DNA of 39,019 bases, from IMG/VR virus record IMGVR_UViG_3300042478_002553, positions 1 through 39,019 of that record, one strand, 5' to 3'. A program made the translations under genes and the position numbers. The stretch comes from a virus. A model generated the notes under the pieces. It was not told the origin of the DNA. It searched no databases and saw only the letters and a program-made list of their open reading frames with translations. The stretch's first letter is position 1. Each line of letters opens with the position of its first letter. Of the stretch, positions 3,243-31,768 are shown in pieces.

Positions 3243-5338
3243 TGCCTATTATTGAAGTTCCTTTTAATGGATACTTTCAATCTAAGTTTGACACACTTGG
3301 GTTTCCGTTTAATATAGATTTACCTGAATTTGTTGCCAATTTTTTTAAGGAGCCTTTCTTGGCATTACCATTTATCACACGGCAAGATATAGGACTGGCA
3401 GGGGATGGTGTCACAGATGATTCGTTTCTTTTAAATAGAAAGATGCGGGAATTGTGGGACGATGGGCTAAGTGCCGTGTTTTGGCTAGACCCACAAGAGG
3501 GAAAATCATTTTATTTCAATGCCAGTGTGGACGTTCGCTCTAACCAATGGGTTATCTTTTCTAGCCGTTCAGAAAAAAACAATATCACTTTTGGTCCCAA
3601 TGGAAGAATGCGGATTTTTGGCGGATTGGATGAAGACCCTGATGAAAACCTGCCTAAGTTAGGCGCAACGTCTACAGAAGGCAGCACAACGCTTTTTATG
3701 GGGCCTGAACCAGAAAGCAATGCCTCTTTATTTCAAGTGGGACAACGGATCATTATTCGTGGAAAAACGGATGCCAACGGTGTGGCCTTGCAAAAAGAAG
3801 ACAATGTTGTAACGGCCATTAACACCAGCCTGAACACCTTGACTGTTTTAAACCCTTTAGAGTTTACTTATTTGCCTGTGTATCCACCAGGGGATTTTGA
3901 GGCCAAGCAAGGGATACCCGATAGGTCGTTTGTCACGCGCTTAATCTCTTATGATTTGACGGCCAATACAACCGTGGGAAGCCCTATTATTTCTCTGGTA
4001 TCTACAACAGGGTTGGCGGTTGGCGACTGGATGTATTTATTTGACGAAGGCGTGGCCAAAGATGTTGGGGGCACGTCTGGAAACTTTATTCGTCAAGAAG
4101 TCGGGAGAATCATTGCCATTAACGGCCTTAACGTCACATTAAACCATGGGGTGTACCATCAATATCTTACCAGCAAAACAGCACGAGTCACCCGTTTGGA
4201 TGCCGTAGGCAATGCCCGTATTACAAACGCTAGAGTGTCTTGGAACACGCCGTCATCGGAAAGAGATAATCATGCTTTCTTTGTGGGGTATGCTTATGAT
4301 TCCATGATTGATAATTGCCATGTTTCTGATGAGGCAGGCTTTGGAAACATTGGATCGTGTTTCCGTTTAGACATTGGTTATAACAACAAGATTCAAAATT
4401 GTTCTGGCCGCAATCCCTATCTTATCGGTCCTGGACTTGGGTATGGAGTTTCTATGTACGGTTCCACATCGTGCTTTTCGGATAATTGCCATGTGGACGG
4501 GATGCGCCATGGGTTTATTTTGTTTAAGGGCACGGCAGGATGCTTATTTACCAACACCAGCATTGTCAATTCCACCATTTCGGACATTGATTTGCATGGG
4601 GCCAATGAAGTTTATAATACCTTTCGTGGGTTCAAGATTGTTTCAGGTCCCACAATTTCAGCCGATGCCAATGACAAAAGCGCAATTAAACTAGGCAATG
4701 AGTTCCATTTGGCAGGTGCTTCCCACAACATTATTGAAAATGGGGAGATAGATTTTTTTGATACCACTCATGATACCAACGGTATCGACATATTGCCCAC
4801 AAGCAGTTGTAATCTTGTAAAGAATGTGGTTATAAAATCCCCTACTGTTGGCATTCAGATCATTGACCAAGATGATGATGCTCTTCCTGGCGATGCTAAC
4901 TTGAAAGCAGAATTTAATAAAATTGAGAACGTAGATATTTACAATGCTTCCGACCGTGCCATAAAATTGCGTGGAAATGCCAATGGATCGACAACACGGA
5001 TTATCAAAGACTTGGAGTTAATCAATATCAAGATGTATGGATGCACGCGCCACATTGACCTTGTGCAAGCGGAGAACGTGTTGGTTAAAGATTGCCAAGT
5101 GATCCGGCCAGGAGACACAACAACCTATCCATACTGTGTAGATGCCACAAATGTGTTGGGATTGAGAGTTTCGCAGAATTATTTTGAGAAAACGCAACGC
5201 GCCGTAAGGATTCAGGATTGCCCATCGGCCAGAGTTATTGATAATACGTTTGTGGATTTGATAAGCGCATCTTCGGCAATCAATGATGTTTCAGGCAATA
5301 CGGGAGCAATTTTAACCCCTAATACGGATATTCCATAA
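3242..5338 (+). CDS. Tailspike with parallel beta-helix (pectate-lyase-like) fold, 698 aa
   Basis: Residues 54-61 read GDGVTDDS, the opening motif of the pectate lyase 3 / right-handed beta-helix superfamily found in many phage tailspikes. From about residue 330 to 690 the protein is a series of short turns rich in Asn, Gly, Asp and Ile/Val (N-x-I, D-N, V-x-N), as expected for successive beta-helix coils. The first 45 residues probably form the particle-binding head. The expected role is recognising and perhaps cleaving a surface polysaccharide. Catalytic residues cannot be assigned by eye. It is coupled by TAATG to both neighbours (3242 and 5338). Confidence 0.82.
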   Translation: MPIIEVPFNGYFQSKFDTLGFPFNIDLPEFVANFFKEPFLALPFITRQDIGLAGDGVTDDSFLLNRKMRELWDDGLSAVFWLDPQEGKSFYFNASVDVRSNQWVIFSSRSEKNNITFGPNGRMRIFGGLDEDPDENLPKLGATSTEGSTTLFMGPEPESNASLFQVGQRIIIRGKTDANGVALQKEDNVVTAINTSLNTLTVLNPLEFTYLPVYPPGDFEAKQGIPDRSFVTRLISYDLTANTTVGSPIISLVSTTGLAVGDWMYLFDEGVAKDVGGTSGNFIRQEVGRIIAINGLNVTLNHGVYHQYLTSKTARVTRLDAVGNARITNARVSWNTPSSERDNHAFFVGYAYDSMIDNCHVSDEAGFGNIGSCFRLDIGYNNKIQNCSGRNPYLIGPGLGYGVSMYGSTSCFSDNCHVDGMRHGFILFKGTAGCLFTNTSIVNSTISDIDLHGANEVYNTFRGFKIVSGPTISADANDKSAIKLGNEFHLAGASHNIIENGEIDFFDTTHDTNGIDILPTSSCNLVKNVVIKSPTVGIQIIDQDDDALPGDANLKAEFNKIENVDIYNASDRAIKLRGNANGSTTRIIKDLELINIKMYGCTRHIDLVQAENVLVKDCQVIRPGDTTTYPYCVDATNVLGLRVSQNYFEKTQRAVRIQDCPSARVIDNTFVDLISASSAINDVSGNTGAILTPNTDIP

Positions 5339-7941
5339 TGGCCAATCAGACCATCACAACGGGAACGCTTGCATCGCCTATCAATTATGATGATGCGTCC
5401 ATTTCTGGTTTGCTGAATGGGGAATCGATCACGATCAATGGTGGTGCGTTAAAAATTGATTCTGATGTTCGTTGGAATCAACAGGCGGCCGTCATGGGCA
5501 ACGTCACGCTTTCGGCCACGCTTGGTGGCTCTTTTGTTGTTGATGGGTCGCAAGTATGGGAGGTTCCGTTCTCGGCCTCTGCTGGAAATGTTCCCACCCA
5601 AGGTGCGTTAGGCACAAACGGCGTTACAGGTGGCACAAGTGGTGCGACTGGTGAACTCACCCGCGTGTGGGCTACTGGATCGCTCAACCCTGCCACGGCG
5701 GGAGGCGCAATGCCCGCCACCGGCTTCATCAAGCTCCGCAGCAAAACAGGCACGTTTCAGAACGGCGAGACAATCACCCTTCCCGGCGGCGCTACCATCA
5801 CCGCCTCTGGCGCTGGCAAGCGGTCATGGATACACGTTGTCGGGCGCTCTGCCGTAACCGGCGGTGGCAGCGTATTAACAATCCCGCGATTGGGCAACGC
5901 TTCATTTTCAGGCGACTGGTACGAGCTGGGCACCACGAATGGCGCGGACAACCAGACTTTCCAGTATCCCGTTGCCGATCAGTGTCCAGCTATCTGGATT
6001 GAGACGGCGGCAGGTTCTGGCGTTTACGAAATCTGGATGAATGCGGGCGTCCGCTGGACCGATGGCCTCGGCGCGATTGCAACCACCGACAAAAGGGGGA
6101 CATACTTTGGTTGCACCAATTCAGGAGTCATTACCATAGCAGGGCGCGGCGCGGCAAACGTTGGACTAAAACCACCCTCGGGTTGTCGAGTGCGCATTCC
6201 AAATGTTCTCATGAGCAATGCGGAACCAACTGATTATTCAGTAAATCATCTGCCAGCAGCCTCGATTTCGCGCTATCAGTTCATTCTCAGTTCTGCTGGC
6301 GGTATGTTTTTGTCAAATGTGTCGAGCAACTGGCTTCACAGCAACACAGGTGCCTTTAAAATAGAAATAAAAGACAGCGGCCTAAACCAGCCGCTTCAGA
6401 TAAGCTCTGTCGGTACAACCCTCGACGTGAGCAACGTCGGCATTGCACAGGTTGACTCCGCTGTAAACACGACGTTGGCAATTCAAACCTGCTACGGCGG
6501 AACGAGATTAACCGATGTTTTTGCGGCAAAGCCTCTGGCTGCCGTGATGCTCAATCTTGCAAACTTATCAGACATTGAGTTTACGCGCGTCAGACTGGAT
6601 GTTTTTGGAGTTGCCGGTTCAACGGTGCAAACCTCAACAAACTGCTTTGGAATTGGACCTGCTATCAACCTGACTATGACCGATTGCGTTGCGGTTGGTG
6701 GGGTCGGCTTGGCCCTCTCAACAGTAGTCACCGCGTCGATTAAAGGCTTCGAATACGCGGCGCAGAACGCCGGAACCACATTGCCAACGAGTACCGCAAC
6801 ACCAATATCCCTTGCCAGCGGTTGCAAAGACATTGTAATTGATGGCTTTGACAATTTTGATAACATACCTGACGTGCATGCCTATGTACCGCTCTATACG
6901 ATTGGCGGAAACTGCGATGGCATTGAGATAAAAAATCTAGGCACACCAATCACGCCTTACAATATGGGAAGCGTGAATCCTGCGTCGCGCGTTGCCTCAA
7001 TAAGCGGGTCCAGAAACATTCAATTAAGAAGGCTTTACGCTCAGAATACGAGAACTGCCGGTGTGTCGCTTGCAACAACAGTGCAGAATGTAGTGATGGA
7101 CAACGTATGGAGCGATGAAGCGGACCCCGCACAAACTCCTGCCAATAATATGGTTTTGCGCGGAGGACGATCAGCAAGCCCGACGGCTGGCTTCTCGGGC
7201 ATCTACGGCTTCCATTGGATGGATGCCTGGACCTCAACTACAGCGGGTTATATCACGATTGCCTGCAATGAGCCGACCGCCCAATCTCTGAACCAGTGTT
7301 CTGCGAGCCTTGCCGTTGGTGCTGGTTCTGGCTTCACTGGTGCTGGCAACGTGGCCATGACCAAGCTCACGGACACAATAGAATGGGCCATGCCGTATTA
7401 TGCCTTGGGCATAACGGGGTTTCAAAATACTGCGCCCACCATCACCGGGACAAATCCTAGCAACCACACGTTACAATTCCAGTGGGATACTGGGGCAGGA
7501 TGGAATGGAACATGGCTCGCTCTGACGGGCGCGAACTTGTCCGGTATTGGTGCCATCAACCCAGCCACCGGCATTAAGCTGAAAGTGCGCGTTACTGTGA
7601 ACACAGCGAGCGCAACAAACCTGCTTACCTACATCAGGATCGACACAACCACTGATGCGGTCTCGCAGCGGATTGAATATCCGCTTCCCGGATCGATTGT
7701 GGCTGTGAACAACCTCGTTCCGAATAGCAGGGTTAAGATCACCCGCGTCGATACTGGCGCGGTTCTCGCTCAGATATCGTCCGTCACGAGCACAACAAAT
7801 TTTGATTTGCAATATGCAGGCGAGGTTCGGATTGAAGCTCGGAACGCAAGCGGCAGCCCAGCGTACAAGCCGTGGGTCACGCGGACTACAATTAGTGCCA
7901 GCTTCACAACAACCGTTACGGCTTTACAGGAGATTGATTAA
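5338..7941 (+). CDS. Large beta-rich tail appendage protein, 867 aa
   Basis: A Gly/Ser/Thr/Ala-rich protein coupled to the tailspike (TAATG) and followed immediately by another appendage gene. Roughly the first 85 residues are encoded by DNA of normal phage composition. From about 5590 to 7935 the DNA is visibly richer in G+C, pointing to a transplanted distal module. The middle (about residues 290-640) has N-x-x-(V/I) and D-N-(V/I) spacing typical of beta-helical or beta-solenoid shafts. The C-terminus (residues 750-867) looks like a beta-sandwich; its RIEARNASGS segment resembles RVDVRNGSGA near the end of the next protein. Likely a receptor-binding fibre or second spike. The specificity is unknown. 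Confidence 0.68.
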   Translation: MANQTITTGTLASPINYDDASISGLLNGESITINGGALKIDSDVRWNQQAAVMGNVTLSATLGGSFVVDGSQVWEVPFSASAGNVPTQGALGTNGVTGGTSGATGELTRVWATGSLNPATAGGAMPATGFIKLRSKTGTFQNGETITLPGGATITASGAGKRSWIHVVGRSAVTGGGSVLTIPRLGNASFSGDWYELGTTNGADNQTFQYPVADQCPAIWIETAAGSGVYEIWMNAGVRWTDGLGAIATTDKRGTYFGCTNSGVITIAGRGAANVGLKPPSGCRVRIPNVLMSNAEPTDYSVNHLPAASISRYQFILSSAGGMFLSNVSSNWLHSNTGAFKIEIKDSGLNQPLQISSVGTTLDVSNVGIAQVDSAVNTTLAIQTCYGGTRLTDVFAAKPLAAVMLNLANLSDIEFTRVRLDVFGVAGSTVQTSTNCFGIGPAINLTMTDCVAVGGVGLALSTVVTASIKGFEYAAQNAGTTLPTSTATPISLASGCKDIVIDGFDNFDNIPDVHAYVPLYTIGGNCDGIEIKNLGTPITPYNMGSVNPASRVASISGSRNIQLRRLYAQNTRTAGVSLATTVQNVVMDNVWSDEADPAQTPANNMVLRGGRSASPTAGFSGIYGFHWMDAWTSTTAGYITIACNEPTAQSLNQCSASLAVGAGSGFTGAGNVAMTKLTDTIEWAMPYYALGITGFQNTAPTITGTNPSNHTLQFQWDTGAGWNGTWLALTGANLSGIGAINPATGIKLKVRVTVNTASATNLLTYIRIDTTTDAVSQRIEYPLPGSIVAVNNLVPNSRVKITRVDTGAVLAQISSVTSTTNFDLQYAGEVRIEARNASGSPAYKPWVTRTTISASFTTTVTALQEID

Positions 7942-9384
7942 ATGGCTATTCAAGACGACTTTCAAATTAGTGCCACAGGGGACATTCGTCGCCAAGCTGG
8001 GGCCAGCACAACCGTTTATTCGGTGTTGGATTTGCACGCATGGTTACAAGATTTAGCGGATGATTCATCTGCTACAGGCAATGACCTTGTAGATATTTTA
8101 GCCCCTAATCCATCACGTTTAGATGGCCCACGGGATGCGGCTGTGGCTTCAAGGCTTAACCTTTTGACTAGTGGTTCCATTATATTCAATTTAGATGATA
8201 CGGCGGCGCAGTTTATCAATTTTGGGTCTATTAAACAGGACAGTGCAAACGTTCAATACTCTGGCCTAAAAACCATCGGTGGTATTGTTGCGGCATCGCC
8301 CGTATATGTTGTGCAAAATGGATCAAAACTCACGACCTTTTGGTCTAACGGTCACATTCAGATTTTGGTGAAGGTGCGTACAGGTGGTGCCCTGATTGAT
8401 TTAGGAAACGTGACGGCGTTTTCAAGAAAATGGGGACAATCGTATTCTCATTTTGACGTAAACCTTGCGGCGGGTGGTGAAAGCAATGCGGCTTTGTCAA
8501 CGTCCCTTGATTCTAACATTGTGCTTTCTGAGGCCAGCGCGGCGGCCTTATCCAGCAAGGTCACGGTAACGTTTGGGGATACCAACCAAGATTTAGCCAA
8601 CGGAAATGGGTCAAAACTGTATAAGGGCACCATCACACTGTCAAGCAGCTGTACCTTGCAAGAAGCGTATCAATACTTGCAATACCTAACGCGGGAAAAC
8701 AGTGCTGCAACCCTTAACAGCATTCCCGGGTGGCGGTATCGGGTTTTAAACGCTGCTTATACGGAAAACGCGGCGGCCCCTTTTGGAACCTTTGCGGGGG
8801 GTACGTTCTTTGTGGCTCAGGGATGGTGGCTCACGGGTGTGTTGGCGTCAGAGGCTACAAAATACCAACTGATCGCGCATGATGGCACAACACAAGTTCC
8901 GCCCACCTTAATTGGCATCACGGTGGGGAATCTTGTGGCTGGGGATCGTGTTTTGGTGGCACGTGACAATGGATCAGGGGCCTTATTAAAAGATGAATAT
9001 ACGCCCGTTGCGGCCAGTGCAGGGGCTACGTCATTGCAGGTTGTGGAAAGCATTAAAACAGATACGCCGTCCTCTGGTGTTATTCGGATTAAGGGGTTAC
9101 GTTATACGTATTCTGCGTTTAATGCTGGCACCAAAACCTTTACGGGTCTTTCGCCTTCTTTAGCCAGCAACATTGTAACAGCGGATGATGTGTTTGTGCC
9201 TTATATTGATAGGGCAGCAACGGGATCATCGGAAAGCGTGACGTTTATTTATGCCTCTAACTTTAATGCCCGCGTGGATGTACGAAATGGAAGTGGCGCA
9301 TCGCCGATTGTGCCTTTCTCTACCACGTTATCTGTGACAAACGCAGGGGCAAGTGTGAATGCAAGCCGAAACAGTGATGTTTAA
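7942..9384 (+). CDS. Tail appendage / structural protein, 480 aa
   Basis: Starts immediately after the stop of the 867-residue protein (TAA ATG), with an AGGAG about ten bases upstream. The N-terminal 60 residues contain a compact helical segment (VYSVLDLHAWLQDLADD). The rest is beta-rich with many Gly, Asn and Val residues and no membrane segment. The C-terminal 60 residues resemble the C-terminus of the upstream protein in spacing (R-x-(E/D)-x-RN-(A/G)-SG), so the two may share a terminal domain. The start of the next gene overlaps the stop (TAATG). A virion appendage role is likely from position; the exact role is not known. Confidence 0.65.
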   Translation: MAIQDDFQISATGDIRRQAGASTTVYSVLDLHAWLQDLADDSSATGNDLVDILAPNPSRLDGPRDAAVASRLNLLTSGSIIFNLDDTAAQFINFGSIKQDSANVQYSGLKTIGGIVAASPVYVVQNGSKLTTFWSNGHIQILVKVRTGGALIDLGNVTAFSRKWGQSYSHFDVNLAAGGESNAALSTSLDSNIVLSEASAAALSSKVTVTFGDTNQDLANGNGSKLYKGTITLSSSCTLQEAYQYLQYLTRENSAATLNSIPGWRYRVLNAAYTENAAAPFGTFAGGTFFVAQGWWLTGVLASEATKYQLIAHDGTTQVPPTLIGITVGNLVAGDRVLVARDNGSGALLKDEYTPVAASAGATSLQVVESIKTDTPSSGVIRIKGLRYTYSAFNAGTKTFTGLSPSLASNIVTADDVFVPYIDRAATGSSESVTFIYASNFNARVDVRNGSGASPIVPFSTTLSVTNAGASVNASRNSDV

Positions 9385-9992
9385 TGACCTATTATCAAGC
9401 CCCTTTTACATTTGACTTTAATGCGTCTATAATTGATATAGATGTAGGAACGTCAGATGTGGATTGTTTTGACATCTACGACGCAATAAAAAAAGCACAA
9501 GCGAGCGAAGAAGGAATCATATATGACAGAATCGGTAGAGGGTCAGGACTCAATGTCCTTGGACCCGGGATCCAAGTTGGTCTCACCGTCGAATTATTGG
9601 GGGCTTGGCAACTTCGGTTCCCGAGTGGAAACTACGTCGCCCGTATCTCCGGCGGAAACTTCATCGGAGGACCAGGAGGAGACCCCATTGCCTACACCGC
9701 CGGAGTCCAAACCCTCCTGATTCAATCTGCGGCTTCCACAATCGTAACAGAAGGTGGCTCTGTCCCCACAGCAGCGCAAAACGCGGATGCTGTTTGGAAT
9801 TACACAATGGAAAACGCCATCACATCAAGCCAAATGCTTAAAGGTGTGGCAAGAACGCAACTGGCCAAAGTCAACGTCAACGAAATAACAGGTGATGTGA
9901 CAATTTATAAACTGGATGGTACAACCGTATTTGCACAGGCATCAACGTCTCCCACAGGGGATAGAAATGCCCCAACCGTAGATTGGAATTAA
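9384..9992 (+). CDS. Minor tail / appendage protein, 202 aa
   Basis: Last full-size gene of the late block. The N-terminal half alternates beta segments, with WQLRFPSGNYVARISGGN near residues 70-90. This is reminiscent of a widespread small phage tail protein family in which a short strand is followed by a (F/L)xDGxY turn and a Val/Ile-rich strand. The C-terminal half has an Ala/Gln helix and a final ITGDVTIYKLDG beta hairpin, as in proteins that cap or attach tail fibres. About 9530-9720 is richer in G+C than the rest of the gene, suggesting mosaic exchange. The assignment is by analogy only. Confidence 0.55.
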   Translation: MTYYQAPFTFDFNASIIDIDVGTSDVDCFDIYDAIKKAQASEEGIIYDRIGRGSGLNVLGPGIQVGLTVELLGAWQLRFPSGNYVARISGGNFIGGPGGDPIAYTAGVQTLLIQSAASTIVTEGGSVPTAAQNADAVWNYTMENAITSSQMLKGVARTQLAKVNVNEITGDVTIYKLDGTTVFAQASTSPTGDRNAPTVDWN

Positions 9993-10827: not shown

Positions 10828-11135
10828 AGTTTCATGCCTTTCCCGTATTCCCTTAACCCCGAAAACTCTCTCATTTTATCAATATGACGGCATTGTTCAA
10901 CTCGGATATGTTCAGCGAGATCATCCGTAAACTCTATAATCTCTTCAAGACTTTCCCTTTTTTCCTGATCCACATCATCTAAATTTAGCCGCAAAGTATG
11001 AGAAATCATAGGCAAAAATTTATGAATTTCATTTAGTTTGTCATTCAATGCCACGCATAACCAGTGCGCGTTTGTTTCCCCTTTGAGGTTTTCAAACACA
11101 TTTTGGTAAACGGTCTCATCTACTAGGTTTTTCAT
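10824..11135 (-). CDS. Unknown helical protein in the lysis cassette, 103 aa
   Basis: The chosen ATG at 11135 overlaps the endolysin stop in an ATGA, the same coupling used at every other junction here. An alternative ATG five codons upstream has no properly spaced ribosome binding site. The protein is strongly acidic and helical (for example DDVDQEKRESLEEIIEF), with no membrane segment and a single Trp near residue 25. Lying between the endolysin and holin, it may modulate lysis. No family is recognised. Confidence 0.6.
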   Translation of the reverse strand: MKNLVDETVYQNVFENLKGETNAHWLCVALNDKLNEIHKFLPMISHTLRLNLDDVDQEKRESLEEIIEFTDDLAEHIRVEQCRHIDKMREFSGLREYGKGMKL

Positions 11136-11599
11136 AATAAATCTTTCCATCCTTCATTGCCTAAAAACATCAAGGATTCTGCCTGTCTGCGTCTGCGAAG
11201 GCCGTTAGAGGGTTGACCTTTAATATAAATCCATCGTTTAAATTCTGCGGATGCTTCTTGTATTCTGCCTTCGTTCAACAGGCGGCGTATGGTTGAACTA
11301 GAAACTTTCCCTCTCCCAAGGTTGAAAACAAAAGAAACCATAGCATCAAACTGGTTTTGGTTTAGGGGAAAATGGACCAAATCGTGGATGTGGTTTTCTG
11401 CTTTTTTTTTATCTACCAAAAAAAGTGCGTCTGCCTCTTCTTGGGTAAGACCATTTTTAAAGCGTTCTGTTTCCTCTGGCCATATTCTGTGACCCCATCC
11501 TATAGTGGGATATTTTGCCCCATCATCGTATGCTCTTAATCGGCACCCTTCAAAAGCATGGATCAATCTGATTCCGTCCTGAGAAAGAGAAAGCATCAT
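11132..11599 (-). CDS. Endolysin, T4-type lysozyme (GH24), 155 aa
   Basis: The muramidase active site is plain near the N-terminus: FEGCRLRAYDDGAKYPTIGWGH carries Glu17, Asp26 and Thr32 in the family's E-x8-D-x5-T arrangement. Length is typical for a compact soluble phage lysozyme. There is no signal peptide or N-terminal membrane anchor, so export should depend on the holin, unlike SAR endolysins. The reaction is cleavage of the beta-1,4 bond between N-acetylmuramic acid and N-acetylglucosamine. The start overlaps the upstream membrane-protein gene in an ATGA. Confidence 0.92.
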   Translation of the reverse strand: MMLSLSQDGIRLIHAFEGCRLRAYDDGAKYPTIGWGHRIWPEETERFKNGLTQEEADALFLVDKKKAENHIHDLVHFPLNQNQFDAMVSFVFNLGRGKVSSSTIRRLLNEGRIQEASAEFKRWIYIKGQPSNGLRRRRQAESLMFLGNEGWKDLL

Positions 11600-11841
11600 T
11601 TAGCCCCTTGGTTAGCGATAAGGGTTGGGATGGCGTTTTCGATATTGGTAACGCGCTCTTCGAGTTTGGCAAAATCGGATTGCTCATCTTCTTTTTTCAT
11701 AATCGCCACCATTACGGCAAGGTTTTTATCCATGTCCGCTTGCGTTTTCAGAAAATAGGTTCCAGCCCCCGCAATGGTGGCGATGACAATACCAATAAGC
11801 GTTATAAGCAATTTGGTATTTGTATTGCTGCTGTCATCCAC
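11596..11841 (-). CDS. Small membrane protein with coiled coil, lysis-associated, 81 aa
   Basis: One strongly hydrophobic segment at about residues 10-31 (LLITLIGIVIATIAGAGTYFL) follows a short polar N-terminus. The rest is a charged helix with heptad character (FAKLEERVTNIENAI). An N-terminal membrane anchor with a coiled-coil domain immediately upstream of an endolysin suits an inner-membrane spanin-like protein, an antiholin or an XhlA-like lysis helper. I cannot choose among these. No lipobox partner is seen nearby. Confidence 0.65.
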   Translation of the reverse strand: MDDSSNTNTKLLITLIGIVIATIAGAGTYFLKTQADMDKNLAVMVAIMKKEDEQSDFAKLEERVTNIENAIPTLIANQGAK

Positions 11842-14514: not shown

Positions 14515-14755
14515 TTTTTTTGAGTACAAAAAGAAAAAGCAAGAGCCTTTAAAAAACGTTCAGGACATAATCCTGAAAAACAACCACCTGAAGACGATAG
14601 AGTGTTTATGCCGTGTTGCGCGTTTCCATGCCAACACGGTTGACGATTACCACATCAACGCATCTGTGCATTGTCTAGAGAGCATCAGGCAAGAGATTGA
14701 CGACCTGCTGGATAGAGTTAAGGAGCAGGGTGGCTGTTTGGTGTTTGACCAGTAG
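14498..14755 (+). CDS. Unknown helical protein, 85 aa
   Basis: The start at 14498 gives a 17-base overlap with the HTH gene. A longer frame from 14426 would lie wholly inside that gene and lacks a binding site. The protein has a basic N-terminus (FFEYKKKKQ) and then helices containing CLCRVARFHANTVDDYH and SIRQEIDDLLDRVKEQ. It may act with the regulator upstream. Its end overlaps the convergent gene at 14718 by 38 bases. No family is recognised. Confidence 0.55.
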   Translation: MRKVIDFFEYKKKKQEPLKNVQDIILKNNHLKTIECLCRVARFHANTVDDYHINASVHCLESIRQEIDDLLDRVKEQGGCLVFDQ

Positions 14756-15152
14756 GCAAGATCACTTCGTCCCATTCAATCAACGGCGCTCCTTGTCCGT
14801 TGTAGTATGTGCGTAAAATAATGCGCTTAACGATTGCACTAGGGTTTTCTAATGATTTAAACTCAAACTTAGAAAGATATATAGGTGTAAATACTGAATA
14901 TTCTTTATAAACATCCACCAAATCCCCTACCATCGGTACAGGACTTAGCAACTCTTGGTTATCTTCGGTAACAGTGACGCGCCAACAAGAGATAAAATCA
15001 TCACCTACATGGGTTTTAAACCCTTTTTTCCATTGCCCTTCGTATGCCGAAAAAGATTCGATGGCTTTCCAACAAAAACTTTCTTCATACAAAGCCGCCT
15101 GACTCAGACGACGTGTTATGAGTTGTGTGCCTATAGGGTATAGTTTGGTCAT
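14718..15152 (-). CDS. Unknown protein, 144 aa
   Basis: The ATG at 15152 has AAAGGAG seven bases upstream, so it is preferred over an ATG ten codons earlier. The protein is beta-rich in its N-terminal half (LYPIGTQLITRRLSQ, then FISCWRVTVTED), has GDLVDVYKEYSVFTP in the middle and a Pro/His tail. No membrane segment or catalytic motif is seen. The gene is preceded by a leader with a promoter and an intrinsic terminator, suggesting attenuated expression. Confidence 0.6.
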   Translation of the reverse strand: MTKLYPIGTQLITRRLSQAALYEESFCWKAIESFSAYEGQWKKGFKTHVGDDFISCWRVTVTEDNQELLSPVPMVGDLVDVYKEYSVFTPIYLSKFEFKSLENPSAIVKRIILRTYYNGQGAPLIEWDEVILPTGQTPNSHPAP

Positions 15153-15187
15153 AATCATTCTCCTTTGCTTGTTGGTACTCAATCAAT

Positions 15188-21430: not shown

Positions 21431-21461
21431 AAAAGGGACGATTAAACACCGTCCCTTTTTT
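21431..21461. terminator. Bidirectional intrinsic terminator
   Basis: AAAAGGGACG (21431-21440) pairs with CGTCCCTTTT (21450-21459) around a 9-base loop, with U tracts in both directions. It lies exactly between the + strand small-gene chain and the convergent - strand chain whose last stop is at 21460. Confidence 0.88.
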
Positions 21462-29606: not shown

Positions 29607-29906
29607 ATGAATTTGAACAATCCATTACAATTTAAAACAAAAAATCCAGCCAATAAAACGGAAAATTCGGATGCTTTGTTAAAGCAAAACCATAAAGTTA
29701 TCCTTGATTTTTATCGTTTGTTTAGTACCCCTGAAGGAGAAAGAGTTTTGGCGTTTTTGAAATCAAAGACGCTGGATCAACCATGCTGGAATCCAGCATA
29801 CGGTGAAAATGCAGAGCGCAATGCCTTTGCAAGAGAAGGACAAAATCACATTGTCCGAGAAATCTTAAAATTTATTGAATACGGAAAGGGTTTAAACGAT
29901 GAATGA
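29607..29906 (+). CDS. Bbp19-like virion-region protein, 99 aa
   Basis: FYRLFSTPEGERVLAFLKSKT (about residues 35-55) and FAREGQNHIVREILKFIE (about 74-91) match the F-x-x-x-F-x-T-P-x-G-x-x-V-L and x-EGQ-R/N-x-x-V-x-x-I motifs of the small Bbp19 family. These motifs are known from Bordetella phage BPP-1 and relatives. The gene sits between portal and scaffold, the usual place for this family. The role is not established. A longer frame would overlap the portal gene and is rejected. Confidence 0.72.
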   Translation: MNLNNPLQFKTKNPANKTENSDALLKQNHKVILDFYRLFSTPEGERVLAFLKSKTLDQPCWNPAYGENAERNAFAREGQNHIVREILKFIEYGKGLNDE

Positions 29907-30756
29907 AGAAGCACTTTTATCAGAAAGTCTAATTGCGGATGGCACTCAAGATAGTTCTGTGGAAATTAAAGAATCTACGGCGCAAGAAATTATTTTTAAG
30001 CCAGACAATGTGCCCGATGATTTTTGGGATGATGAAAAAAAATCTCTTAAAACAGACGATCTTTTAAAATCATATTCGGAATTGGATAAACGCGCCAAAG
30101 GATTGCGAGAAAAGTTATCCAAAGGAATGCAAAACGTTCCTGATGATCCAAAAGGATATGAATTCCAAATGGAAGAACAGGTTTTGAAAGATTTAGAGGT
30201 TGAAGAATTAAATGCCGATATGGTGGATATGGCAAAATCAGCCGCTTTAGAGGCTGGATTGTCTAAAGAACAATTTAATGTGTTCATGACAAAAATCATA
30301 CCACAGTTGCATGAATATGAACAAGTTTTAAATCAAAGAGAACCTACCCAAGAAGAAATTGAACAACAAAAACAAGAAGTAGAAAGTTATAAAAAACAAG
30401 AACGTTCAAAACTTGGTGATGGCGCGGATAGAATTATTGAAAGCGTCAAAGCCCATCTTAATACAATCAAAAGACAAAATGTGTTTTCTGAATCAGAGGT
30501 TGATTTGATCCAAAACGGTCTTGGTGCATCTGCTGATGGGATCATGATTCTTAATAAAATGTTTACCAAAATGTTTGGTGAAACATCTCGGGTTTCTGAT
30601 TTTAATGCAAAACCATCATCGTTTGGTGTTGTTACGAAAGATTCCTTAATGGAAAGATTAAATGATCAAAGAAACGCCACCAATTCTGCTTTTTATGAAG
30701 AAACACAGCGCATGGTGGAAAGATATGGGGAACAAAAGAAAAGGGCATCAAAATAA
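29899..30756 (+). CDS. Scaffolding / head assembly protein, 285 aa
   Basis: A Glu/Lys/Gln-rich, mostly helical protein directly before the capsid gene. The N-terminus has KPDNVPDDFWDDEKKSLKTDDLLKSYSELDKRAKGLREKL (residues 34-73), the P-x-x-x-W-D... LLKxYxELxxK pattern of T7-type scaffolds. It then has NVPDDPKGYEF and a long helix and coil region (EQVLNQREPTQEEIEQQKQEVESYKKQE). The C-terminal helix is basic, for binding capsid subunits. It directs assembly of proheads and leaves during maturation. SD AAAGGG is eight bases from the ATG. Confidence 0.85.
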   Translation: MNEEALLSESLIADGTQDSSVEIKESTAQEIIFKPDNVPDDFWDDEKKSLKTDDLLKSYSELDKRAKGLREKLSKGMQNVPDDPKGYEFQMEEQVLKDLEVEELNADMVDMAKSAALEAGLSKEQFNVFMTKIIPQLHEYEQVLNQREPTQEEIEQQKQEVESYKKQERSKLGDGADRIIESVKAHLNTIKRQNVFSESEVDLIQNGLGASADGIMILNKMFTKMFGETSRVSDFNAKPSSFGVVTKDSLMERLNDQRNATNSAFYEETQRMVERYGEQKKRASK

Positions 30757-30764
30757 ATGTTTAC

Positions 30765-30809
30765 AAAATAGGTTTGTTGTTATATTTGATAAAAAAACGA
30801 CCTATTTTT
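30765..30809 (+). terminator. Weak hairpin with U tail after the scaffold gene
   Basis: AAAATAGGT (30765-30773) pairs perfectly with ACCTATTTT (30800-30808) and runs into a further U. The loop is 26 bases. The AT-rich stem makes a leaky terminator, or a processing site separating scaffold from capsid messages. Confidence 0.45.
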
Positions 30810-30842
30810 AGGCCCGCAGTTTTGCCCCTAGTAAAAAAATAG

Positions 30843-30882
30843 CCCTCTCGTTGATCGTGAAAAAATCAATTTAACGAGAGGG
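30843..30882 (+). promoter_or_regulatory. Perfect hairpin covering the capsid ribosome binding site
   Basis: CCCTCTCGTT (30843-30852) pairs with AACGAGAGGG (30873-30882). The 3' arm contains GAGAGGG, the Shine-Dalgarno of the capsid gene, whose ATG is at 30887. The inner GAT/ATC pair can extend the stem. The structure could tune capsid translation or mark the 5' end of a stable processed mRNA. Confidence 0.75.
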
Positions 30883-30886
30883 ACTT

Positions 30887-31768
30887 ATGTCATCTTTACA
30901 ACAGGCAAATAACTTTGCCATTGAGTTTGACCTTAAAACAAAACTTGATGCAACGTTACAGGAGTCAAAACTAAGAAAATTATGCCAAGTGCGTACAAAT
31001 GTTGTTGGTTCTACGACAACTTTTAACCGTATTGGCTTAATGACCACCAACCAAAGAACAATCGGTGCAGGACCATTGCAGGCTCAAGATGTGGCCCAAA
31101 GCCACGTTGTTGCGAACATTAACGTTTTTGATGCCGTCACAATGCTTGATGACACGGAAATGGATCGCATTACATACGATTTAAAATCGTATTTGATCCA
31201 AGCAGCACGTTCGGCGGTTATTAACCGTATTGAACAGGTTATTATCAATGCCATGAATGCTGGTGCAAGTGCTACAATTTCAGTGGGTGCAGATGGTACA
31301 AACTGGACTTTGGCAAACATGATTGAATTAGCCAACATTTTTGACCGATTAAACATGCCGCAACAAGGACGTTATTTTGTTGTGCATCCAAACAGTTTAA
31401 AAGCGGCTCTTCAAACATCGGCGGTTACAAGCTCTGATTTTAACACCTTGATGGCTCTTATGGGATCTACAGGTGATTTAACCGGAAAATCTTACCTTGG
31501 TTTTGAGTTTATCGTTATGGGTAACTTAGACACTACAGAAGGTGGTTTGCCGTTTAACGGTACAACAAACGTTCGTACAAACTTTGCCGTTTCCGCTAAT
31601 CATCTTGGTCTTGCTTTTAATAGAGACATTCGCACAAAAGTGTCTATGATTGATCGGGAAGATTCGTGGCAGATTTTGGCATCTGTTTCTGTTGGTGCCG
31701 TTGGCATTGGTAGTACGCAAGCTGGAAAAGAAGGAATTTACAAATACTTAATTGACGAAGCAGTTTAG
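30887..31768 (+). CDS. Major capsid protein, 293 aa
   Basis: Follows the scaffold gene and precedes the decoration-like gene. Sequence features suit an HK97-type capsid shell protein. There is an extended N-arm, then FNRIGLMTTNQRTIG, and a spine helix TYDLKSYLIQAARSAVINRIEQVIINAMNAG (about residues 96-126). A P-domain strand has RYFVVHPNSLKAAL (about 164-177), and a late beta section precedes REDSWQILASVSVGAVGIG. No protease domain is attached. The length matches small T=7 podoviral capsids. The message has a stable hairpin at its start site. Confidence 0.87.
   Translation: MSSLQQANNFAIEFDLKTKLDATLQESKLRKLCQVRTNVVGSTTTFNRIGLMTTNQRTIGAGPLQAQDVAQSHVVANINVFDAVTMLDDTEMDRITYDLKSYLIQAARSAVINRIEQVIINAMNAGASATISVGADGTNWTLANMIELANIFDRLNMPQQGRYFVVHPNSLKAALQTSAVTSSDFNTLMALMGSTGDLTGKSYLGFEFIVMGNLDTTEGGLPFNGTTNVRTNFAVSANHLGLAFNRDIRTKVSMIDREDSWQILASVSVGAVGIGSTQAGKEGIYKYLIDEAV

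Follow-up and report, generated by a model that had tools for sequence, protein, structure and literature searches.

Capsid/scaffold balance and assembly timing in tailed phages are usually ascribed to promoters and gene order. In MS2, an operator hairpin bound by coat protein controls replicase, and on the translational riboswitch platform sequestor and anti-sequestor helices decide whether the Shine-Dalgarno sequence (SD) is free. For phage T4, the accessible part of one source describes inhibitory hairpins at the ribosome-binding sites (RBS) of genes e, soc, 49 and I-TevI that sequester the SD or AUG; the gene e hairpin strongly lowers translation, with relief coming from late promoters in its 5' strand (PMC3014915). 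The same source describes, 67 nt ahead of the T4 gene 32 start, a pseudoknot at which the binding of gp32 over an unstructured RBS is nucleated (PMC3014915). The phage riboswitches encountered in the literature act on other genes, one example being the glutamine riboswitch at ssrA in Melnitz (PMC9004378). Our literature search found no capsid leader switch in these phages; most subscription journals lay outside its coverage and such an absence is weak evidence.

Here we analyse the major capsid gene leader of a podovirus-like virus record, the whole 39,019-base stretch of which we call the window. Like T4 e, soc, 49 and I-TevI, the locus has its SD sequestered by a helix ahead of a phage gene; unlike gene e, it has a predicted competing helix upstream, no promoter-like site in the 5' strand that by eye is kept, and a major capsid gene downstream. 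Two competing helices over SD access recall the riboswitch platform, whereas the window leader lacks an unpaired core common to the compared lineages, its ligand is putative, and Rfam gave 0 matches above gathering score in the window and 10 related loci (a permissive scan of the leader gave 10 matches, all far below gathering scores). As in T4 gene 32, a structured phage leader lies upstream of the RBS and a pseudoknot reading is possible, but here the RBS itself is buried and the binder is putative. The locus recalls the MS2 operator, an RBS hairpin of capsid biology that controls translation, but here the leader is that of the capsid gene's own mRNA. On balance, we think it more likely than not that two competing folds make this capsid mRNA leader a conserved translational switch acting in cis, off by default.

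Sequestration of the capsid start site

The capsid gene product matches PHROG 3437 (major head protein) at E 1.4e-28, and the gene upstream has no PHROG match at 0.001 (Table 1). A preliminary description of this DNA had proposed that a perfect 10-bp hairpin, P3, buries the capsid SD. All ten pairs are present, with 20 nt between the arms, and GAGAGGG lies entirely inside the 3' arm, its end 4 nt from the ATG. A 59-nt piece carrying P3 folds at -20.5 kcal/mol (z -5.3), which 0 of 200 shuffles equal. The window has four perfect inverted repeats of 10 bp with loops of 3-25 nt, versus a mean of 1.22 per shuffled window, and such repeats are in themselves not rare; for those with at least six G+C pairs, like P3, the shuffled mean is 0.08 (60 windows). 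Computed folds show that pairing of the anti-SD arm CCCUCUCGUU with the SD buries the latter. At none of the 45 window ORF starts examined is the mean unpaired probability lower than at the P3-held capsid SD, where it is 0.00, a value also reached by ORF 14718-15182, which has no recognisable SD. As computed, then, the capsid leader carries its SD inside a stable helix, as in the T4 e/soc type.

Table 1. Positions of features around the capsid leader of the window.
Feature	Position	Strand	Basis or remark
Major capsid protein gene	30887..31768	+	PHROG 3437/267/283 major head protein
Upstream gene, probable scaffold protein	29899..30756	+	Position; counterparts in other phages annotated capsid assembly or putative scaffolding
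Weak promoter-like site TTTACA-15 nt-TATATT	30760..30786	+	Read by eye; putative
Strand a, ACGA (AACGA from 30796)	30797..30800	+	Able to pair with a'
Terminator-like hairpin GGCCTAAAAATAGGTC-GTTTTTTT, with T tail	30814-30799	minus	5' end of capsid leader
P1 helix CTATTTT/AAAATAG, 7 bp	30802..30842 (30802-30808 with 30836-30842)	+	Folds, structural alignment
P1 inner pairs AGG/CCT	30810-30812 / 30827-30829	+	Within P1
P2 hairpin GCA-GTTT-TGC	30816..30825	+	Within P1; folds, structural alignment
Anti-SD arm of P3, CCCTCTCGTT	30843..30852	+	Contains a' TCGT 30848-30851
3' arm of P3, AACGAGAGGG	30873..30882	+	Holds SD GAGAGGG 30876-30882

Opening the capsid SD costs a computed 17.1 kcal/mol in the window, where the strong-SD control median is 2.4 and 0 of 34 other strong-SD genes of the same phage reach the capsid value. 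The cost is 9.4 kcal/mol in G001 (L002; reached by 0 of 40 controls), 13.3 in G003 (L024; 0 of 9) and 7.4 in G004 (L036; 1 of 11). Folds of the leader give 17.4 in the window, 9.1 in L002, 13.1 in L024, 7.4 in L036 and 7.2 in L045. On these computed folds, the default state of the leader should be off.

A buried SD before a probably highly expressed gene is a paradox that would be solved if long upstream transcripts with the anti-SD arm were silent and late transcripts, starting inside that arm and lacking it, were translated. The SD-in-stem anatomy is that given for T4 e, soc, 49 and I-TevI in the accessible part of PMC3014915. We nevertheless regard a mechanism of the T4 gene e/soc type as improbable here. 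By eye, the letters before the P3 loop read AAAAAAATAGCCC in the window versus GGTTTTGGCCCTG in L036, with no promoter-like letters kept; a scan of 22 of the window's roughly 45 proteins found no phage RNA polymerase; and the second helix described below would be left unexplained. A scan for sigma-70 promoters, its hits at chance level, listed none within the anti-SD strand, where a promoter of a phage-specific kind might still lie. Further upstream, the weak promoter-like site was not listed by a consensus promoter scan; by eye, its spacing is 17 in L002 and L024, and L036 and L045 carry TTGACA-17-TAAAAA/G.

Ten base pairs are short for an RNase III stem. The preliminary description had also raised stabilisation of a processed capsid mRNA, as by T7 RNase III sites. 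A long perfect stem just before the gene is in keeping with a processing site, for RNase III or another activity, that would stabilise or activate the mRNA. Given the stem length, the loss of two pairs in the closest clade and the fact that the stem buries the RBS, we consider such a site very unlikely.

Other hairpins occur in the window. Between converging gene blocks, at 21431-21459, AAAAGGGACG and CGTCCCTTTT form a perfect inverted repeat of 10 bp with a T run behind it, which reads as a terminator, perhaps a bidirectional one. An operator-like perfect 11-bp inverted repeat TATTCACAATT/AATTGTGAATA lies inside an ORF at 2701-2741. On the minus strand, a small 5-bp CCCTT/AAGGG hairpin at 11605-11624 contains the SD of the endolysin gene (11132-11599, PHROG 7), which recalls T4 lysozyme.

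A predicted second helix over the anti-SD arm

The 3' half of the anti-SD arm holds a' (UCGU, from 30848), which in computed folds pairs either with the SD side or with the upstream strand a. Strand a sits one base before P1, and a/a' would close a domain containing P1 and P2. Competing helices over the anti-SD strand are thus present at this locus, in computed folds only.

Since MAFFT was unable to align L036 and L045 with the remaining group-1 leaders, pairs were counted on an alignment of five such leaders (window, L002, L024, L036 and L045) that was fitted by hand to the structure and spans three lineages only. On it, 85 of 85 cells of 17 pairs are paired with standard pairs, and 10 of the 17 pairs show double-sided changes; when a single sequence stands for each of the three lineages, this result is equalled by 0 of 5000 partner shuffles. 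Because this alignment had been fitted to the structure, a test on shuffled 5' leaders was added for four of the five (not L002). Strand a plus an abutting P1 was allowed in 9 of 4000 shuffles for the window, 11 of 4000 for L024, 13 of 4000 for L036 and 17 of 4000 for L045. For the relatives compared, whose letters differ, the layout with two folds can also be drawn, and compensatory changes go with it.

Closer inspection of the relatives gives a mixed picture. The L001 leader equals that of the window. All eight of the closest relatives (L002-L009) keep the anti-SD arm letter for letter, while their 3' arm carries AAAAAGAGGG and two P3 pairs are lost without compensation, which counts against the switch. 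Kept despite the lost pairs, the arm is therefore conserved beyond the needs of the SD hairpin, and the second helix may account for the excess; UCGU is unchanged in these eight and in L024, although its P3 partners differ there. At 61% capsid identity to the window, L024 keeps SD sequestration, and the blocks AAAAACGACCTATTT and AAATAGCCCTCTCGT are identical in the two, with fourfold sites in five genes 21-63% identical. L036 and L045 (41-42% capsid identity) again have a stem-bound SD, AAGGG. Their upper stem differs, GAUUGGU/ACCAAUC, upper P3 being replaced as a block in L036; AUCA and UGAU stand at the places of a and a', and P1 is CCAGA/UUUGG.

Conserved pairing in relatives, which the preliminary description had looked to as a test of the hairpin, is therefore borne out in one respect and not in another. 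Compensation is seen in the distant lineages and in the pelagiphages, where it falls in a/a' and the enclosed hairpins; the SD pairs neither vary nor covary, and the base of P3 is invariant throughout group 1, which also counts against the switch. A search for covariation would have been misleading if run on the nearest relatives alone, because all eight drop two pairs uncompensated.

In growing-chain folds, which are equilibrium folds of lengthening RNA and not a kinetic simulation, all five leaders of the three lineages show a' paired initially with the a region, from which the SD hairpin then takes it over. Pairing of a' with the a region peaks at 0.92 in the window, 0.92 in L002, 0.75 in L024, 0.88 in L036 and 0.83 in L045. 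It declines during synthesis of the 3' arm of P3, in L036 and L045 even ahead of the SD, and has gone to 0 once the leader is complete. At the point preceding the SD hexamer, the exact a:a' register stands at only 0.15 in the window, 0.41 in L002, 0.43 in L024, 0.02 in L036 and 0.00 in L045. Upstream pairing of the hexamer is only 0.58 in L036 and 0.57 in L045. Both of these results count against the switch.

The favoured switch would work as follows. Nascent RNA would fold first into the a/a' domain, which the SD hairpin would then displace as its 3' arm is transcribed, so that capsid translation would be off by default. A putative trigger holding the a/a' domain would expose the SD; because unpaired letters differ between lineages, our guess for the trigger is a phage protein coevolving with the leader. 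Exposure would time or limit capsid synthesis relative to scaffold, the aim being perhaps timing, perhaps stoichiometry. The earlier suggestion that P3, by hiding the SD, could delay or regulate capsid translation is backed by computation, in that sequestration recurs in relatives with other letters and the leader has a competing fold. Delay of capsid translation until scaffold is made would fit these observations, and control by a putative stem-binding protein is possible.

Static repression, in which the hairpin merely lowers capsid translation or serves as an RNA thermometer, a second state does not exist and the a/a' match is incidental, is a credible but unlikely account. It agrees with the dominance of P3 in the full-length fold (a/a' 0.00 in all five group-1 leaders), with the fall in computed opening cost of the window SD from 20.9 at 20 C to 17.4 at 37 C, and with the weakness of a/a' just before the SD in the computed folds of L036 and L045. 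It does not explain that a/a' and the enclosed hairpins change in step, nor the constancy of UCGU opposite altered P3 partners.

The two helices could also coexist. Folding of a/a' and CCCUC/GAGGG together around P1 would give an H-type pseudoknot, a putative protein or ligand site somewhat like that of T4 gene 32. Stacking of both helices is conceivable, since CCCUC is flanked immediately by P1 and a'; an A-rich stretch follows a', and the accessible part of PMC3014915 has gp32 binding a leader pseudoknot. In the pelagiphages, however, a' is itself the SD-binding strand, and the two pairings exclude each other because the same letters serve both. We therefore hold a pseudoknot to be rather improbable.

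The strand on which the structure acts was also considered. The preliminary description had placed a U tail on a hairpin just upstream; that tail is absent from the plus strand, the terminator-like hairpin with a T tail being on the minus strand, and no plus-strand intrinsic terminator (G+C stem then U run) was listed within the leader, 30757-30886. The hairpin that reads as a minus-strand terminator might end an antisense or other functional RNA, and the SD hairpin also folds on that strand, at -18.9 kcal/mol. The terminator stem, however, loses one pair in L024 (GGCCCACAAATAGGTC), and G-U pairs fit the plus strand better: minus-strand P1 loses 2 of 25 cells, and 50 of 51 group-1 cells, 46 of 50 pelagiphage a/a' cells and 35 of 40 pelagiphage hairpin cells are paired on the minus strand, versus all on the plus strand, a difference that is small in group 1. 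We give a functional minus-strand RNA little credence.

Leaders of pelagiphages and other phages

HTVC010P-type pelagiphages, the second most abundant known pelagiphage group according to the accessible part of PMC12753301, have capsids about 25% identical to the window capsid. Their leaders follow, with variations, the layout CAAGAGA-GCC-hairpin-AAC-UCUCU-loop-AGGAGAC-AUG. Across 10 leaders, all 78 cells counted for the AGAGA/UCUCU helix and its enclosed hairpin are paired, 12 of 90 having been set aside for gaps; the set leaves aside HTVC028P and Baldr (leaders do not align), Hodr and the Skadi copies. Covariation of a/a' plus hairpin is 0.274 versus 0.161 when shuffled (0 of 500) and 0.005-0.146 when slid, and pairing of the UCUCU strand with the SD is 98% kept, with no covariation. 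Before the SD is made, a/a' is 0.66-0.92 in 7 of the 10 leaders, with HTVC035P at 0.37, Lederberg at 0.31 and Skadi4 at 0.09; in the full leader it is at most 0.04 in 9 of 10.

A pelagiphage covariance model finds six pelagiphage capsid leaders at E 1.4e-12 or better, all six belonging to its training set; the next best match has E 0.21, and nothing was found in Baldr, in the HTVC028P and Hodr capsid leaders, or in the window, the last of which counts against the switch. Searching phage DNA for distant matches to the window leader gave 36 records, the 20 listed being at E 0.2-0.7, and led nowhere, and capsid searches of bacterial genomes gave no relative. Elsewhere, Vibrio phage 1.182.O, ct8d5349 and ctHz2215 also have buried SDs; growing chains of the first two pass through an a/a'-like stage, those of Lederberg and ctHz2215 have no a/a' stage, which counts against the switch. 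In YeP5 an upstream SD complement pairs in the fold to -130, with an ordinary opening cost within -80; in SI2 the stem covers only part of the SD.

SD opening costs were compared with strong-SD controls of the same genome in 22 phages, with control starts from a simple ORF caller; the sets leave out L045, L037, other window-group contigs, Greip, HTVC034P, 100P, 204P, Skadi-3, -6 and -10, Vibrio phages L042 and L043, and SI2. The capsid SD is costlier than every control in 8 of the 22 (window, G001, G003, HTVC203P, Skadi4, HTVC028P, ct8d5349 and Vibrio 1.182.O), and its cost is reached by at most two controls in 12, with one or two matching in G004, Hodr, HTVC024P and ctHz2215. Controls reach it more often in HTVC035P (3/30), ZP6 (4/31), HTVC010P (5/31), Vibrio 1.254 (6/35), Lederberg (8/27), Baldr (10/25), ct3Et533 (12/19), YeP5 (13/26), MEP301 (19/33) and ctVRi840 (23/37). 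The ordinary costs in MEP301, ctVRi840, ct3Et533, YeP5, Baldr and Lederberg count against the switch.

With folds begun at -90, -110 and -140, 18, 18 and 17 of the 22 phages have a sequestered SD, versus 262, 275 and 311 of 615 controls, and a competing helix enclosing a hairpin is found in 9, 6 and 7 of 22 versus 36, 51 and 53 of 615 (Fisher p 4.9e-6, 0.0095 and 0.0026, the phages not being independent). In the automatic switch test, the window passes only with the -90 leader, not at -110 or -140, and L036 passes at none of the three lengths, which counts against the switch.

Only tentatively, we suggest that these leaders could form an undescribed phage regulatory RNA family, a trigger-operated two-state capsid-leader switch running from podoviruses of the window's group to HTVC010P-type pelagiphages, in which capsid translation would stay off and start only once the 5' domain is captured by some factor of the phage (scaffold, capsid protein or other assembly signal). 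If true, a conserved RNA switch on capsid start would add a translational layer in tailed phages, including HTVC010P-type pelagiphages, and would offer a direct, testable handle on capsid timing.

Some features are particular to single lineages. An 18-codon ORF, MPPDGFGPDWFLKHHQSL, at 6142-6198 of L036 starts in the leader and ends at the capsid SD, and translational coupling is possible in that lineage. This ORF, a similar one in L045 (by eye) and an ATG before a in some pelagiphages hinted at a leader peptide, which was rejected when a matching start was seen by eye to be absent in L024, Greip, HTVC100P, 204P and 203P. Near the leader start, L036 (6060-6110) and L045 (1734-1781) carry an extra 11-bp hairpin, CAGTTCGCGTA/TACGCGAACTG, standing after a TTGACA-17-TAAAA promoter-like site. 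L024 is a mosaic over 5001-9730: compared with L012, a member of the nearer clade, identity is 97% for the portal, 91% for the scaffold, 95% for a later gene and 56% for the capsid; because the L024 leader differs too, it seems to have travelled together with the capsid gene in this swap.
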